Notes under the pieces: model-generated | Database searches by the model: none | Seen by the model: only the letters and a program-made list of their open reading frames with translations | Told to the model about the DNA's origin: nothing | Source of the DNA: Candidatus Binatia bacterium | GTDB lineage: Bacteria; Desulfobacterota; Binatia; HRBIN30; BPIQ01 | Assembly (NCBI GenBank): GCA_026004195.1 | Contig: BPIQ01000002.1 | Location: forward strand, 372,001-436,000 | Direction: 5' to 3' | Length of the DNA stretch: 64,000 bases | Program-made: the position numbers and the translations under genes | Part shown: in pieces, positions 30,935 through 41,961 of the stretch | Layout of the letters: every line of letters starts with the position of its first letter | Numbering within the stretch: the stretch's first letter is position 1

Positions 30935-32570
30935 TGTGAACAAATTCGGGTCTTGGCGAAAGGCCAGCGAAGCAGGAGCTCGCCGGGGTCGGTCGGAGGA
31001 AAAAAGAGAAGGCTGGCGGCCTCCGGGGTTCCCACCGAGCCCCGGCTTGCCACCTCCTTCCGGTCTTTTCGTCTTCGGTTTCGGCCCTCTCTCTCGCCTA
31101 CGACGCCTTAGCTTCCGCCCGCGGCCGCAAGAAGGGCGAACCACCGCAGCAGGTTGTAGGTGATCACGTTCAGCAACACGATGCACCGCACCTTCGTTCT
31201 CCCCCGTAAGACGATCTTCCCGAGCGTCCTCCAGCGCTTGAGGTCCGCGTGCACCCGCTCGCTCACCCGAGCCCGCACGCCGTAGATCGCCCGCCCCTCC
31301 GGTGTCCTCATCCTCTCTTTGAGCTGCCGCACCGCTTCGCTGTCCCGGGGCCGCACCTCGTAGGGATCGGGCTTCCCCTTCCTTTTCGGTAAAGCCCCGT
31401 AAAGCTCCACACCCCGCGCACTGAGCTCCTCCACGTTCTCCACGCTCGTGTAGCCCGTGTCCACCACATACTGCTCCGGAAGCCTCTCGAACCTCCGCTC
31501 AAGCTGCTCCAGCATCGGCACCGCCTCGGCAAAATCCGTCCTCCCCTGACTCACCTCCACCCCCACCACCACCTCGCTCTCCGCGTCCGTCGCCAGCTGG
31601 ACATTGTAGCCCGGAAGATACGCCCCGCCCGTCTGCCGCATCACGCGCGCCTCGGGGTCCGTCGTCGAGCTGCGTGGCTCCCCCGAGGGCTCCTTCGCCC
31701 CCTTCTTGTAACCCTCGCGCTCCCTCTCCAAAGCCCCGAGCTCCTCGAGCGCCCTCGTAAGCCTCCTCTCCCTCTCCTCAAGCGCTCGCCTCTGCGCAGC
31801 CTGCTTCCTCCTCGAGAGGCTCCGCCGTGCCGGTGCCTCGAGCTCCCCACGCAGCGCCTCGATCTGTCTGCGTACCTCCGCCCGCAGCTCCTCCACCTTC
31901 TTTCTCCTCCGAAACGACCGGTCCCCGGCCGAAGCTCGCACCCGCGTCCCGTCCTGCGCCACCCGCCGAAGCCGCACCAGCCCCTCGGCCATCATCACCG
32001 CCAACACCTGCGTGAAAAGCTCCTCGAGCGCCTCCGCGTTCTCGCTCCGAAACGTGCTCAGCGTGTGGTAATTCACCGGTACCCCCGCCCCGAAGCCACC
32101 GGTAGGCCACGTGCTGCTCCGTCAACCTCTCGAGCTCCCTCGCACTGCCTACCCCCTCCGCCGTCGCATAGAGCCACAGCGCCAAAAGCACCTGCGGATC
32201 CGTCGCATCCCGCCCCGCCCAGCTCCCCCGCGCCTTGATCCTCTCGTAAAAGGCCGAAAGGTTCAGCTTCTTCACGACCGCCAACACACTGCGGGCCCGG
32301 TGCGTCTGAGGCAGCTCGCCGTCCAGATCCACCACCTCCCACCGAAGCTGGCTCCGCTCCGCTCTCACCACCCGCGGTGCCGCCTTCGCTGCCTCCGCCC
32401 GCCGCCGCTCCCGCGCCTCCGCGAGCCTCCGCTTCCTCTCCTCCGCACTCTCCCCGCCCAGAAGCTCCACCTGCTCCATCCCTTCACCTCCCCACCGTAG
32501 CTTCCCCTCCCTACCACACTCCGCCCCCAGAGCCGAATCCCTCCAGGGTAAATTTCCGAATTTTTTCACA
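30935..32570. mobile_element. IS1182-like insertion sequence (about 1.64 kb)
   Basis: Bounded by 15-bp imperfect terminal inverted repeats that match at 14 positions: TGTGAACAAATTCGG at 30935-30949 and the reverse complement of TGTGAAAAAATTCGG at 32556-32570. Contains one frameshifted transposase. No clear target duplication is seen. Flanks (ATCGGAGGGCCC on the left, CCGCTCTGTCGGGTCC on the right) look like the two halves of one repeat-family palindrome, so it probably inserted into a repeat. Confidence 0.75.
31108..32479 (-). pseudogene. IS1182-family DDE transposase, frameshifted
   Basis: The N-terminal part starts at ATG 32479 (MEQVELLGGESAEERKRRL) with the DUF772-type segment LNLSAFYERI and ending in AYRWLRGGG. 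The C-terminal part resumes in another frame at VPVNYHTLSTFRSENAEAL. One extra G in the GGGGG run near 32085-32090 explains the shift. Catalytic-domain marks remain: VAQDGTRVRASAGDRSF, YVVDTGYTSVENVEEL and RVSERVHADLKRWRTLG. The element is probably inactive unless ribosomal frameshifting on the G-run restores the product. Confidence 0.82.
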
Positions 32571-32576
32571 TCCTCC

Positions 32577-33000
32577 CCGCTCTGTCGGGTCCGTGTTCGT
32601 GCGTGGCGCGGCCCCCGCCCCCCCGGACGCGACGGAGCGCGTCCCTCCGGCCGGCCGCGTTCGCGGGAATCACGAATGGCGCGCGTTTCCTCCACCCTCC
32701 GCAATCGGAGGGCCACGCTCTGTCGTGGCCCTGTCCGTCGGAGGGACCCGCTCTGTCGGGTCCGTGTTCGTGCGTGGCGCGGCCCCCGCCCCCCGGACGC
32801 GACGGAGCGCGTCCCTCCGGCCGGCCGCGTTCGTGGGAATCACGTACGGCGCGCGTTTCCTCCACCCTCCGCAATCGGAGGGCCACGCTCTGTCGTGGCC
32901 GCGGTCCGCGAAGGGACCCGCCATTCGGGGCCGGCGTGCGGGCGCGTCCCCCGCCCCCCGGACGCGACGGAGCGCGTCCCTCCGGCCGCGTTCGCACGTG
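32577..33000. repeat. Palindromic repeat array A
   Basis: Contains three R1 palindromes (GGACGCGACGGAGCGCGTCC at 32625, 32795 and 32960), two R2 (GGCCACGCTCTGTCGTGGCC at 32711 and 32881) and one full R3 (GGACCCGCTCTGTCGGGTCC at 32744) plus a truncated R3 at the IS border. R1 faces the opposite way to R2 and R3. Period about 165-170 bp. No gene is supported in 32571-33063; open frames here are translated repeats. Confidence 0.85.
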
Positions 33001-33063
33001 ACCGGGCCGTACACCCCCGTACGGGGCGGGAAACACCCGTACGCGTCGCCGGGATCGCCCGGA

Positions 33064-35147: not shown

Positions 35148-35176
35148 CTGACATCCGGCCCGACCGTTCTTAATAG
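35148..35176 (+). promoter_or_regulatory. Promoter of the RaiA-sigma fusion gene
   Basis: CTGACA (35148-35153), 17-nt spacer, TAATAG (35171-35176), about 40 nt before the GTG start, in a 239-bp gap otherwise without genes. Confidence 0.48.
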
Positions 35177-35185
35177 GCATGACAG

Positions 35186-35204
35186 GCCGGTCCGCGGGAC
35201 CGGC
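35186..35204 (+). other. Leader hairpin beside the ribosome-binding site of the RaiA-sigma gene
   Basis: Perfect 8-bp stem (GCCGGTCC / GGACCGGC) with a 3-nt loop, ending one base before the GGGAGG ribosome-binding site. It could mask or expose translation initiation. Seen directly; its role is inference. Confidence 0.5.
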
Positions 35205-35219
35205 GGGAGGTGACGTTCC

Positions 35220-36212
35220 GTGCTCAAGTGGGAAGCCTTCTACAAGAGCGTCGAGGCCACACCCCGGATCAAAGCCGACGTGGAGCGGCAGGTTCGCAGG
35301 GTGGAGCGCCGCGCGCAAACGTTCGGCGACGACCTGCTCTTTCTGCGCATCACGCTGGAAAAACACCCCCGTAAGAACAGCTTCACCACCGGCCTCACGC
35401 TCGAGCTCCCGCGCGGCGAGCTCCACGCGCGCGAGGAAGCGCCCGACCCCTACCTGGCGACGAAACGTGCGTTCGACTGGCTCCTCGAGCAATTCGACGG
35501 ATACAAGAGCCAGCTTCGCCACGAACGCGGCTACAAGCGGAAGAGGACGCCGTGGACACCCCCGGTACCCGAGCAAGCGCAGCCCGAAGCCAGGGAAGTG
35601 CTCGAGCTCCTGCGCCCCCACTTCGAACGACTCGAGAACTACGTCCGCCGGGAAATCGCCTTCCGGATCCACGTGGGGGACCTGGGCCCGGGGGACCTGA
35701 AGGTCCCCGACGTCCTCGACGACGTCGTTTCGACGGCCGTCGAGCGCTTCGCGGAGAGACCCGAGCAGGTTCCGCTCGACCGCTGGCTCTACCAACTCGC
35801 GCGGGACCGCGTCGAGCGCGCCGTGTCGGAAGTCTCGGAAAAGGAGTCCTCCGCCGTCCCGCTCGAAGAAGAAACACCTCCGGACGAGGAGATCCCCGCC
35901 TCGCCGGACGAAGCGTTCGTGGAGCTCCTCGAACCTGTCGAGGATCGCTTCGAAGACGTTCTTCCCGACGAGGGAATCGGCACACCCGCGGAATCCGTCG
36001 GTACCGAAGAGCTGACTCGGCTCGTTCACCGAACGCTCGGTTCCCTACCCCGCAGCACCCGTGACGCCTTCGTTCTCTGCGTTCTCGAGGGATTCGACCC
36101 CGAAGAGGCAGCGTGGGTGACGCGAACCGACCCGGGGGAGATTCGCCGCGAGATCGAGAAAGCACGGGAGATTCTGCGAGATAAGCTCCGGCAGGCCGGA
36201 GTTCTGGCCTGA
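35220..36212 (+). CDS. Fusion of a RaiA/HPF ribosome-hibernation domain with an ECF-type sigma factor
   Basis: A 330-residue protein with three parts. Residues 1-100 resemble the RaiA/HPF beta-alpha-beta-beta-beta-alpha fold (RRVERRAQTFGDDLLFLRIT, LELPRGELHAREEAPD, ATKRAFDWLLEQFDGYKSQL). Residues 125-200 look like sigma region 2 (LENYVRREIAF, DVLDDVVSTAVERF, WLYQLARDRVERA). An acidic linker (about 205-262) leads to a clear sigma region 4 at 265-325 (LGSLPRSTRDAFVLCVLEGF, DPGEIRREIEKAREILRDKL). GTG 35220 has GGGAGGTG upstream. The gene is followed 21 bp later by a BaeRF gene. It could be a sigma factor held on ribosomes, or a hibernation factor regulated through a sigma-like module. Sigma-4 and RaiA calls are good; sigma-2 is moderate. 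Confidence 0.75.
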   Translation: MLKWEAFYKSVEATPRIKADVERQVRRVERRAQTFGDDLLFLRITLEKHPRKNSFTTGLTLELPRGELHAREEAPDPYLATKRAFDWLLEQFDGYKSQLRHERGYKRKRTPWTPPVPEQAQPEAREVLELLRPHFERLENYVRREIAFRIHVGDLGPGDLKVPDVLDDVVSTAVERFAERPEQVPLDRWLYQLARDRVERAVSEVSEKESSAVPLEEETPPDEEIPASPDEAFVELLEPVEDRFEDVLPDEGIGTPAESVGTEELTRLVHRTLGSLPRSTRDAFVLCVLEGFDPEEAAWVTRTDPGEIRREIEKAREILRDKLRQAGVLA

Positions 36213-36233
36213 GGAAGCCCGCGGAGAAAACCC

Positions 36234-37385
36234 ATGGTCACCGCTTACGACATCGAAAAGCTCTTGCAGTTCGACAGTCCCGACGTCCCGATCTCGAGCT
36301 TCTACCTCGACGTGGACGGCAGACGTGTCACGCCCCGGGAGTACGAAACGGCGGCCAAGGACCTGATCAAGGCCCGCCGCGAGGAAACCGAGCGTTCCGA
36401 CCTGCCCCATGCCGCGAAAGCTTCCCTCAAAGAGGATTTCCGCAAACTGGAAGAGTTCGTGGTGCAGGGGTTCGCCCGCGACGACACGCGCGGCCTCGCC
36501 GTGTTCAGTTGTTCGGCGAAAGATTTCTGGCAGGTCTACCGCCTTCCGCGACCCGTCAAGAACGCCTACGTGATCGGCCACCAACCCTACGTCCGGCCCC
36601 TCACGCTTCTTCTCGACGAGTACCATCGCTTCGGCTTCTGTCTGGTCAGTCGGGAGAAGGCGCGGATTTTCGAGTTCTACCTGGGAGAGGTCCTCGAGCA
36701 CACCGAAGCCTTCGAAGAAGTGCCAGGGAAGGTGAAGGTCGCGGGCTGGTACGGCCTCGAGGAACGCCGGATCGAACGCCACATCGAAGACCACGTGCGG
36801 CGTCACCTGAAAGCCACGGCCGAGTGGCTTTTCCGGGAGTTCCGCCGGAGAAAATTCGATTACGTCATCCTGGGCGGGAAAAGCGACCTGCTGCCGGAAT
36901 TCGAGCGTTTTCTCCACCGCTACGTCCGCGACCGGATCGTCGCGCGGCTCGAGATGGACGTCGACGCTCCGGTCGACGAGGTGCGCCGTCGGCTTCTCGA
37001 AGAGGAAAGGCGGTTCGAGGAGCGACAGGAACGGGTGCTCGTCGCCGAGCTCGAGGAGCAGGCGAGCAAGAAGGCTTACGGCATCGCCGGCCTCGAGGGA
37101 ACGCTCCAGGCGCTCGCGGCCGGCGCCGTGAGAATCCTCCTCGTCGACGACGGCTTTACTGCCCCCGGACGGCGCTGTCCCGCGTGCGGCTTCCTCTCGG
37201 CAGGCGACGAAGCCCAGTGCCCGATTTGCCGGGAGGGCCTCGTGGCCGTGTCCGACATCGTCAACGAGGCCATCGAGGAAGCCTACCGGCAGGGAGGCGA
37301 GGTCGAACACGTTCTCGGCAATCCGACGCTCGAGAGGCTCGGGCACATCGGCGCGCTTCTACGGTTTCCCTTGACACCTCCCTGA
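36234..37385 (+). CDS. BaeRF-family protein (bacterial eRF1/Vms1-like) with zinc-ribbon insert
   Basis: A 383-residue protein of the bacterial archaeo-eukaryotic release-factor group. The N-terminal part has SFYLDVDGRR and the eRF1-like middle domain (ARIFEFYLGEV, FDYVILGGKSDLLPEFERFL). The last domain has GIAGLEGTLQALAAGAVRIL, matching eRF1 domain 3, interrupted by a zinc ribbon RRCPACGF/AQCPICREG near 313-330. No GGQ motif is seen, so peptide release by the classical mechanism is unlikely. It is probably co-transcribed with the RaiA-sigma gene, suggesting a ribosome stress or rescue role. BaeRF-hibernation factor links are known in comparative genomics; the biochemistry is open. Confidence 0.75.
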   Translation: MVTAYDIEKLLQFDSPDVPISSFYLDVDGRRVTPREYETAAKDLIKARREETERSDLPHAAKASLKEDFRKLEEFVVQGFARDDTRGLAVFSCSAKDFWQVYRLPRPVKNAYVIGHQPYVRPLTLLLDEYHRFGFCLVSREKARIFEFYLGEVLEHTEAFEEVPGKVKVAGWYGLEERRIERHIEDHVRRHLKATAEWLFREFRRRKFDYVILGGKSDLLPEFERFLHRYVRDRIVARLEMDVDAPVDEVRRRLLEEERRFEERQERVLVAELEEQASKKAYGIAGLEGTLQALAAGAVRILLVDDGFTAPGRRCPACGFLSAGDEAQCPICREGLVAVSDIVNEAIEEAYRQGGEVEHVLGNPTLERLGHIGALLRFPLTPP

Positions 37386-37422: not shown

Positions 37423-38180
37423 AATCGGAGGGCCACGCTCTGTCGTGGCCGTGTTCGGGAACGGAACCGGCGGTCGTTGCCAACGTTCGACCGGCACGTG
37501 CCCCGCCCCCCCCGGACGCGACGGAGCGCGTCCCTTCGGCCGTGGTCGTCCATGCTGCGAACGTCGATGCTCGAACGCAAACGGCTCACGTCGTTTCCCC
37601 CCCCATCCCCGGACGCGACGGGGCACGTCCCTCCGCGTGGAACGCGTTCGCGCCCTGGCGGGGCCGTTGGTCGCCGACGTGACGGAAAACGCCCGTACGG
37701 GGCCTCCGTTTCGCGTGGGGGAATCGGAGGGCCACGCTCTGTCGTGGCCGTGTTCGGGAACGGAACCGGCGGTCGTTGCCAACGTTCGACCGGCACGTGC
37801 CCCGCCCCCCCCCGGACGCGACGGAGCGCGTCCCTCCGGCCGTGGTCGTCCATGCTGCGAACGTCGATGCTCGAACGCAAACGGCTCACGTCGTTTCCCC
37901 CCCATCCCCGGACGCGACGGGGCACGTCCCTCCGCGTGGAACGCGTTCGCGCCCCTGGCAGGGCTGTTGGTCGCCGACGTGACGGAAAACGCCCGTACGG
38001 GGCCTCCGTTTCGCGTGGGGGAATCGGAGGGCCACGCTCTGTCGTGGCCGTGGTCATCGAAGGGACCCGCCCTGTCTGGTCCGTGTTCGCGGATGCCGCG
38101 AACGTCGATTCCTCGAACGCGAAACGACCACGGCGCCGCCCCGCCCCCGGACGCGACGGAGCGCGTCCCTCCGGGTGCAA
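37423..38180. repeat. Palindromic repeat array B, about 300-bp tandem unit
   Basis: Two near-identical tandem copies begin at R2 palindromes at 37423 and 37722 (spacing 299 and 300 bp), with a partial third from 38022. Each copy holds one R2, one R1 (37514, 37814; another at 38149) and a variant R1 with GGGGCACG in its second arm (near 37605 and 37910). The stretch contains no supportable gene, although frames run open through it. Confidence 0.85.
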
Positions 38181-38239
38181 CTCGAACCTTGACACGGACT
38201 TCCCTTCGGTTCTATTCGCCCGAGGGCCACGGAACGGGG

Positions 38240-40102
<1,863 letters not shown>

Positions 40103-40133
40103 TGCCTCGACGCCCAGGTTCTTCGAAAGGCAC

Positions 40134-41357
40134 GTGAACCCCTTCGGTCTCGACCGGGTCGCGTACGAGAACCGGCCCGAATTCGCGGATCTCGACGGCG
40201 ACGGCGACCTCGACGCCCTGGTCGGGAGCTACCAGGGCGAGCTCACGTTTTTCGAGAACACGGGGAGCGCCAGCGATCCCACCTTCGGAGACCCGCGGAC
40301 GTCCCCCTTCGGCCTTACGGCCCACGATCGCGGGGCTAGCCCGGCCGTGGTCGACATCGACGGGGACGGAGACCTGGACGTTTTCGTCGGTTTTCGGTCG
40401 GGCGAAGTCTTCTTCTTCGAGAACACGGGCAGCGCGACGGATCCGGCTTTCGCCGGACCCGAGCCTCTTGCGTTCGGCCTACAGTCCGTCGGGTACGACG
40501 CCTCGCCCGAGTTCGCCGACGTGGACGGCGACGGCGACCTGGACGCATGGGTCGGAACCCGAGGGGGCGACACGTTCTTTTTCCGGAACACCGGTAGCGC
40601 TTCGAGCCCGGCCTTCGAAGGTCCCCAGACGAATCCCTTCGGCCTCGTGAGAGCGTTCGGACAAAGCCGGCCGACGTTCGCCGACGTGGACGGGGACGGC
40701 GATCTGGACGCGTGGATCGCCAACGGGAATTACGTCGAGTACTTCGAGAACACCGGAAGCAGTTCGCTTCCGGCCTTCGGGGGCAGGCGGTTCGATCCTT
40801 TCGGCTTGGTGGCGTACTCCGGCTATGCGGTCGGCGTCGACTTCGCCGACATCGACGGGGACGGCGACCTGGACGCTTTCGTCGGGGAAAGTGTCGGCGA
40901 AATCGTATTCTTCGAAAACCGACCGGCTCTCGTCGTGCTCCCCGAACCCACTCCTACGGCTTCCCCGACGCCGACTCCCAGTCCGACTCCGACGCCGACG
41001 GCCACCCCGACTCCGAGCATCTCACCTACCGCCACGGCGACTCCGACTCCGAGCACCTCACCGACCGCCACCCCGACCGAGACCACGGCTCCCTCGCCGA
41101 CTCGGATGGAGTCCCCCACAGCAACGCCCACGGAGACGCCTCCGCCCACCCCGACTCCCACACCCGCAACACCGTCGCCCACGGCCACGGAGTTTCCCCC
41201 ACGTGGAGACCTGGATGGGGACGGTGACGTGGACGGGGAAGACCTCGAGTTTTTGCTCCGCGAGATCTTCGCACCTTCGCCCGGCACGGAAGCGGACGTG
41301 AACCGCGACGGGCGCGTCGGCGCCGCGGACGTCGTCGCCCTGCTCGACCGAATCTGA
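40134..41357 (+). CDS. 3' part of the DxDGDGD-repeat protein with Pro/Thr linker and dockerin-like domain
   Basis: Continues the upstream repeat series with five more units (15 in all), from MNPFGLDRV onward. A roughly 80-residue Pro/Thr/Ser-rich linker ([10 protein letters not shown] type) and a C-terminal dockerin I-like module follow: [17 protein letters not shown] and [18 protein letters not shown] are two EF-hand-like calcium loops 30 residues apart. Dockerins dock to cohesins or anchor surface proteins; no cohesin is in view. The GTG at 40134 is merely the first start after the frameshift, so this piece is probably not an independent gene. Confidence 0.75.
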
Positions 41358-41372
41358 ACGGTCGCCCCCCAA

Positions 41373-41933
41373 CCCCCGGACGCGACGGAGCGCGTCCCTC
41401 CGTGGGCGTCGCCGCGTTTCTCGGAGGGACCCGCTCTGTCGGGTCCATGTTCGTGCGTGGTACCTCCGTCCCCCCGCGGACGAATTCGGAGGGCCACGCT
41501 CTGTCGTGGCCGTGTTCATGCGTGACACGTCCGTCTGCCCCCGAAACGAAATCGGAGGGCCACGCTCTGTCGTGGCCGCGTTCGCAAATGGCACCGGCGG
41601 TCATCGGCGACGTCCGACCGTCGCGTCCCCGCCCCGCCCCCGGACGCGACGGAGCGCGTCCCTCCGTGGGCGTCGCCGCGTTTGTCGGAGGGACCCGCTC
41701 TGTCGGGTCCATGTTCGTGCGTGGTACCTCCGTCCCCCCGCGGACGAATTCGGAGGGCCACGCTCTGTCGCGGCCGTGGTCATGCGTGACACGTCCGTCT
41801 GCCTCCGAAACGAAATCGGAGGGCCACGCTCTGTCGTGGCCGCGTTCGCAAATGGCACCGTCGGTCATCGGGGACGTCCGACCGTCGCGTCCCCGCCCCA
41901 CCCCCGGACGCGACGGAGCGCGTCCCTCCGACC
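41373..41933. repeat. Palindromic repeat array C, exact 264-bp tandem unit
   Basis: R1 palindromes at 41378, 41642 and 41906 are exactly 264 bp apart. Each unit has R1, then R3 (41427, 41691), then two R2 copies (41492 and 41558; 41756 and 41822). The R2 at 41756 has one stem change (CGCGGCC). No gene is supported in 41358-41961. Confidence 0.87.
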
Positions 41934-41961
41934 GTTTCGGGTATGGCGATCGGGGCATCCG

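Follow-up and report, generated by a model that had tools for sequence, protein, structure and literature searches.

Balon is a hibernation factor that binds the ribosome together with RaiA (PMC10901736). Its genes lie in stress operons, in which RaiA is the commonest neighbor, and alternative σ70 genes are also found near them (PMC10901736). A link between baeRF and HPF was noted in 2019 (PMC6514570). On the transcription side, the joining of a sigma-like module to a sensor is a known design. PhyR, which mimics a sigma factor in the general stress response of Alphaproteobacteria, has the correct structure of an ECF sigma with degenerate promoter- and core-binding regions (PMC8103513), and its mode of action is to bind an anti-sigma factor (PMC8103513; PMC4598750). 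Other ECF sigmas, such as those of the ECF41/SigJ type with SnoaL, consist of σ2, a linker and σ4 plus a fused regulatory domain. According to a review, nothing mechanistic is known about the regulation of ECF sigmas by N-terminal extensions (PMC8103513). In addition, one tLST was reported to contain a 'sigma 24 like' factor, whose HPF part went unremarked (PMC8290217).

The protein described here resembles each of these and departs from each. It carries the HPF/RaiA (YfiA) domain, PF02482, with TM-scores of 0.83-0.90 to HPF on the ribosome or in crystals, but in place of the C-terminal domain of long HPF it has a σ2-σ4 module. It shares the architecture of ECF sigmas with a fused regulatory domain, and 7qh5 is the best PDB profile match over its sigma part, but its extension is N-terminal and of the ribosome type, and the promoter-contact residues appear to be largely lost. 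As in PhyR, a sigma-like module is joined to a sensor, and in most lineages its recognition helix is acidic; unlike PhyR, the protein has HPF instead of a receiver, occurs outside the Alphaproteobacteria, and has an invariant Asp in region 2.2. Whereas Balon loci have separate RaiA and σ70 genes, the neighbor of the Balon-type gene here is one protein with both an HPF and a sigma-like part. Fusion genes of Alphaproteobacteria lie in tLST islands, usually between ClpK and HdeD, but the present locus is not itself a tLST. No mention of an HPF-sigma fusion was found in the open-access papers searched, two ECF reviews included; within that literature the family is undescribed, and the wider literature may differ.

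The window, a stretch of 64,000 nucleotides from a Candidatus Binatia bacterium (contig BPIQ01000002.1), carries the fusion gene followed by a baeRF gene (Table 1).

Table 1. Features of the fusion gene and its downstream neighbor, in window coordinates
Feature	Position	Strand	Basis or detail
Perfect 8-bp inverted repeat/hairpin directly before the ribosome-binding site	35186..35204	+	sequence
GGGAGG, ribosome-binding site of the fusion gene	35205..35210	+	sequence
HPF-sigma-like fusion gene, 330 aa, GTG start	35220..36212	+	ORF, Pfam, NCBIfam, AlphaFold2, Foldseek
HPF/RaiA domain, aa 1-100	35220..35519	+	Pfam PF02482; AlphaFold2; Foldseek match to HPF on 70S ribosomes
Basic linker, aa 101-121	35520..35582	+	net charge +3; low pLDDT at 102-110
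σ2-like helical domain, aa 122-211	35583..35852	+	TIGR02937, AlphaFold2, Foldseek
Acidic linker, aa 212-255	35853..35984	+	net charge -15; family motif around QPD..L.LED
σ4-like helix-turn-helix, aa 256-325	35985..36194	+	Pfam PF08281 and PF22233
21-bp intergenic spacer	36213..36233	+	fusion end to baeRF start
Balon-related baeRF family 10 gene, 383 aa	36234..37385	+	PF18854, NF052288, PDB 8v9j
Zinc ribbon CxxC-CxxC within the Pelota-like domain	37176..37229	+	Cys at aa 315, 318, 329, 332

The first gene encodes a true fusion of HPF/RaiA to an ECF-type σ2-σ4 module. The initial annotation had proposed such a fusion, and it is confirmed because curated profiles, PDB sequence searches and the predicted structure concur. 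In Pfam, the RaiA-type model Ribosomal_S30AE matches residues 9-99 (28.9 bits, cut-off 23.7) and the region 4 model Sigma70_r4_2 matches residues 268-317 (28.5 bits, cut-off 25.7). PF22233, the PhyR sigma-like model, is barely above its cut-off (28.6 versus 27 bits). The Pfam models of sigma region 2 have no match in the window copy; the region 2 fold is therefore assigned from the predicted structure and from the NCBIfam sigma70-ECF model TIGR02937 (residues 163-323, E 2.9e-9), whose 36.8 bits lie below the cut-off of 42.9. Neither a receiver domain nor the C-terminal dimerization domain of long HPF has a Pfam match in the protein, and so the sigma part occupies the place of the latter. A profile built from 25 relatives matched ECF sigmas in the PDB (7qh5, 1e-12; σE, 3.6e-12) and, separately, HPF chains at about 1e-5. 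The S30AE model is matched by 21 of these 25 at E 0.01 or better.

An AlphaFold2 model made on the alignment of 25 relatives has a mean pLDDT of 78 and two well-defined parts: an HPF β-α-β-β-β-α fold over residues 1-100, then helices at 122-211 and 256-325 separated by a low-confidence stretch at 212-255. The relative placement of the parts is unreliable (pTM 0.53). With Foldseek, the HPF part matched 8uu7, HPF on the Listeria 70S ribosome, with a TM-score of 0.83 of target, and 4hei with 0.90; the sigma part matched 5uxx, RpoE from a sigma-anti-sigma complex (TM-score 0.74 over 204 columns), as well as E. coli σE (6jbq). These two independent folds rule out a single unrelated fold. The acidic linker described at the outset is also borne out, and it is disordered in the model. 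An artifact of gene prediction or assembly is ruled out, as the single ORF is kept in more than 100 genomes. The same genome encodes a canonical long HPF separately (C1:825343, 85.8 bits, adjoining a PTS IIA-like gene); thus, the fusion is an extra, specialized protein and not the general hibernation factor.

The second gene belongs to the Balon-related baeRF family 10. Its product matches PF18854 (baeRF_family10) with E 4.5e-33 and 115 bits against a Pfam cut-off of 27.1. It also matches NF052288, the hibernation factor model of the MSMEG_1130 family, with E 1.3e-18, although its 67.2 bits are below the equivalog cut-off of 480. The sole relative found in a PDB search is Balon MSMEG_1130 on the ribosome (8v9j, E 1.3e-7), and the four zinc-ribbon cysteines are invariant in 8 members of the baeRF family. 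The profile, the spacing and the cysteines agree with the earlier description of a zinc-ribbon BaeRF gene just behind the fusion. The role in ribosome rescue given to it there is unsupported, because the protein is kin to Balon and lacks GGQ; neither a GGQ nor a NIKS motif was found in the window baeRF protein. From its sequence, the protein is predicted to act in ribosome hibernation, not in rescue.

The leader of the fusion gene does contain a hairpin with an 8-bp stem, as first noticed, but the translational control suggested for it is without support: the leader folds no better than shuffled sequences (z -1.15). Nor is the hairpin a repeated operator, since its sequence has a sole exact copy in the genome.

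The fusion is not confined to this genome. A first genome scan with the window protein as sole query found no relatives, because these are merely about 20-38% identical to it (mostly 24-38%). A search of 84,980 genomes that used an alignment of proteobacterial sequences, with confirmation by tblastn, yielded 121 confirmed end-to-end relatives. Of the 121, 80 were retained (L059-L138), and they come from Burkholderiales, many Alphaproteobacteria, two Gammaproteobacteria and one Blastocatellia MAG. In the phylum of the window, 8 of 297 sampled genomes have a near-full-length fusion, the window's own included; the class of the window has it in 5 of 148 genomes and the Acidobacteriota in 21 of 297, two of these matches being partial. 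A tblastn search of plasmids gave 20 records, six of which have one place spanning at least 80% of the query; they are annotated as sigma-70 family or FliA-like. Methylorubrum extorquens AM1, a cultured bacterium, has a copy on its megaplasmid. Full-length relatives are thus present in more than 100 genomes of Alpha-, Beta- and Gammaproteobacteria, Acidobacteriota and the window's phylum. The statement that HPF and sigma factors are normally separate holds for the majority of proteins; the fusion nevertheless has a wide distribution already, under the sole annotation of a sigma factor.

The pairing with baeRF recurs as well. In five loci of Acidobacteriota (L175, L177, L178, L181 and L192), baeRF directly follows the fusion on its strand, with gaps of 31, 48, 32, 24 and 53 bp, respectively. 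In Blastocatellia locus L075, it follows the fusion after 313 bp, with a small ORF in between. Profile checks identified both domains of the fusion in L175 and baeRF family 10 in L175, L192, L152 and L075. Because the pair repeats across Acidobacteriota and L075, the two-gene operon predicted at the outset appears to be real and recurrent. In L152, which is from the window's class, baeRF lies about 2.8 kb upstream of the fusion, within the same cluster, which also includes Hsp20, DnaJ and a Clp ATPase. Mapped onto a tree of 45 fusions, the trait of having baeRF as direct neighbor requires four changes, at least three of them forced by well-supported branches; the link is therefore either ancient and often lost or repeatedly gained. 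The small ORF of L075 (L075:6527-6814) encodes 95 residues with HxxxCxxC and is zf-HC2-like (E 0.0049, below cut-off), a possible anti-sigma gene. It was the only such candidate for a recurrent cognate anti-sigma gene; other HxxxCxxC matches near fusion genes were not anti-sigma-like on reading, and the window copy has no adjacent anti-sigma gene.

Relatives of the fusion usually sit within proteostasis clusters containing Hsp20, FtsH, ClpK, GroEL, DnaK, HdeD or HtrA. The fusion ORF was located in 78 named loci, and each of these has at least one of the stress-cluster genes searched for; within the stretch examined, Hsp20 occurs in 66, ClpK in 59, FtsH in 51, HdeD in 48, and GroEL and DnaK in 14 each. 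ClpK is directly upstream of the fusion in 56 of the 78, which are not independent cases because many are near-copies of one mobile island. Annotated tLST-like islands with the fusion are found in Roseomonas, Agrobacterium and Paracoccus, and in Burkholderia and Paraburkholderia the fusion lies in a GroES-GroEL-DnaK cluster. Within the window's phylum, the neighbors are Hsp20, an SDH-type protease and MarC (L051, L052), HtrA and SurA-like genes (L044-L047), or a site-2 protease (L048, L049). Several copies from Acidobacteriota outside the baeRF-linked clade have no proteostasis neighbor among the genes searched for. The window fusion has an F420-dependent oxidoreductase upstream and a long repeat protein downstream; the hsp20-clpG(K) core of tLST, present for most alphaproteobacterial relatives, is absent beside it. 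Since the neighbors are varied yet mostly related to proteostasis, a single function under protein or ribosome stress may be inferred.

Several other features were observed in these regions. The gene immediately upstream of the fusion in L045 (L045:6692-7651) encodes a diadenylate cyclase of the DisA type, and SurA-like and HtrA-like genes belong to the same cluster; in two Acidobacteriota loci a STAS-domain gene of the anti-anti-sigma type is directly downstream (L189:7596-7997, L190:7393-7734). The repeat protein of the window (38514-41357) has about 15 units of roughly 165 bp with a DxDGDGDLD motif and a proline-threonine-rich stretch; one spacing, near 40006-40181, is 175 bp, and the ORF is interrupted at 40102/40134, which points to a frameshift in its gene. 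GC-rich dispersed repeat families, with units of about 40-260 bp and the core CCGGACGCGACGGAGCGCGTCCCTCCG, fill intergenic stretches at 32576-33049, 37423-38193 and 41361-41950. An apparent transposase gene at 31108-32716 on the minus strand consists of two overlapping frames and is perhaps frameshifted.

Whether the sigma part still works as a sigma was judged from its residues. The comparison set was 27 distinct control ECFs from loci of the searched genomes, to which PhyR and EcfG-type proteins were added; the latter two came from six fusion-bearing genomes of Alphaproteobacteria. The recognition helix of σ4 has a mean net charge of -1.8 in the fusion family and -3.0 in PhyR, but a positive one in control ECFs (+2.3) and EcfG (+4.6); the difference between the family and the control ECFs is significant when kinship is ignored (Mann-Whitney p 6e-11). 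The helix of the window copy has a net charge of -1 and is basic at 4 of 5 tested -35-contact positions, and in BaeRF-linked copies the charge is about neutral on average. In region 2.2, all 45 fusions have Asp (Asp167) at a position where 60% of control ECFs have Gln and PhyR has Ala, Arg, Leu or Val. The FRG-type (aromatic-R) loop before the WL motif of σ2 is R-P in the family. In alphaproteobacterial fusions, σ4 is the least conserved domain, with 47% identity versus 75% for HPF, whereas a fixed promoter would call for the reverse. A single-sequence PDB search with the sigma part gave PhyR 9by5 as the best match (6.5e-8), then σE (3.5e-6), whereas family-wide Sigma70_r4_2 is matched by 21 of 25 relatives and the PhyR model by 4 of 25. 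Much of the promoter-reading chemistry of ordinary ECFs thus appears to be lost, and promoter recognition is in doubt because the recognition helix is acidic. The earlier idea of a sigma factor kept inactive on ribosomes is weakened: the σ2-σ4 fold stands, but promoter recognition is doubtful.

A simple GGAAC-based scan of 11 regions upstream of fusion genes found no ECF-type promoter motif, and a shared promoter of this kind was rejected. No RpoH-like site was detected ahead of the fusion gene. The Hsp20 promoter conserved in Burkholderiales does resemble one recognized by RpoH. This very conserved promoter, upstream of Hsp20b in L009, L053, L054 and L059-L074, reads CTTGAAA, spacer, CTATCTTA. 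It is followed by a conserved 5' leader with a AGGCGAAC...GTTCGCCT inverted repeat near the start codon, perhaps an RNA thermometer.

The explanation we favor, and hold tentatively, is that the protein is a ribosome-linked sigma mimic, whose HPF part would bind the small subunit and whose sigma-like part would bind a transcription-side partner without reading a promoter. The HPF part would dock on the 30S subunit of idle ribosomes, and docking would hide or expose the sigma-like part, such that occupancy sets whether the module is free. The module may capture an anti-sigma factor or RNA polymerase; stalled or hibernating ribosomes would then change the running sigma or stress program. The Balon-type partner, presumably co-expressed from the neighboring gene, would fill the ribosomal A site. 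A mimic, or another RNAP-side binder, is preferred over a plain sigma because the acidic -35 helix resembles that of PhyR. The altered σ2 loop and region 2.2, the fast divergence of σ4 in Alphaproteobacteria, the PhyR 9by5 match and the degeneracy reported for PhyR (PMC8103513) point the same way. The two independent folds, the retention of the fusion in 121 relatives, in Acidobacteriota and in scattered members of the window's phylum, the stress neighbors at every one of the 78 loci, and baeRF directly after the fusion at six loci are also consistent with it. However, the basic contact positions of the window copy, the near-neutral BaeRF-linked copies, the better family-wide match to Sigma70_r4_2, and the absence of an anti-sigma gene adjoining the window copy argue against a mimic, as does the receiver domain of PhyR, which the fusion lacks; moreover, the charge comparison was made without regard to kinship. 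A true ECF sigma with an N-terminal HPF sensor, inactive on the ribosome and upon release joining RNA polymerase to turn on its own stress cluster, is somewhat unlikely. The σ2-σ4 fold, the ECF profile matches, neighborhoods that form coherent chaperone and protease regulons, and the below-cut-off zf-HC2-like ORF of L075 would suit it, and it is most plausible for the window copy with its basic -35 positions. It fits poorly, however, with a recognition helix that is acidic and poorly conserved in most lineages, with the replaced Gln, with the negative GGAAC-based scan and with the RpoH-like promoter of the neighboring Hsp20.

The invariant Asp lies in the core-binding helix and hints that contact with RNAP may have been kept while DNA contacts were lost. 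This raises the idea of a double hibernation factor, in which HPF would hold the ribosome and the sigma-like module core RNA polymerase, again without promoter reading, so that both are parked together. Two folds for two machines and the Balon-type partner agree with this, and there is a precedent in E. coli, for which two sources describe coordinated hibernation of ribosome and RNA polymerase by separate proteins (PMC6134199, PMC6904343). Nevertheless, core binding is hypothetical and Asp departs from the usual Gln, making the idea improbable. Even less probable is a sigma-like part with no transcription role, a spent helical module that, like the C-terminal domain of long HPF, would serve ribosome dimers or chaperone contacts. 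Its position in place of that missing domain and the rapid evolution of σ4 in Alphaproteobacteria would be accounted for, but the σ2-σ4 fold is kept across great divergence and the same genome has a separate long HPF.

Together, these considerations make it probable, by a slight lean, that the fusions form a widespread class of ribosome-bound sigma regulators. In such a class, the state of the ribosome, sensed by HPF, would be passed within one protein to the sigma network, with the sigma-like part as a mimic, a true sigma or an RNAP tether, often with a Balon-type gene in one operon, and on mobile stress-tolerance islands. As far as is known, transcription is matched to the state of the ribosomes chiefly by ppGpp and by distinct proteins that act on one machine or the other. 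If the link to the ribosome is true, the coupling would be categorically new, since one protein spanning the ribosome and the sigma network would connect the two directly and physically. It would also explain why Balon-type genes adjoin sigma factor genes, and it would supply the transmissible stress-tolerance island with a regulator, whose gene carries only a sigma factor annotation there.
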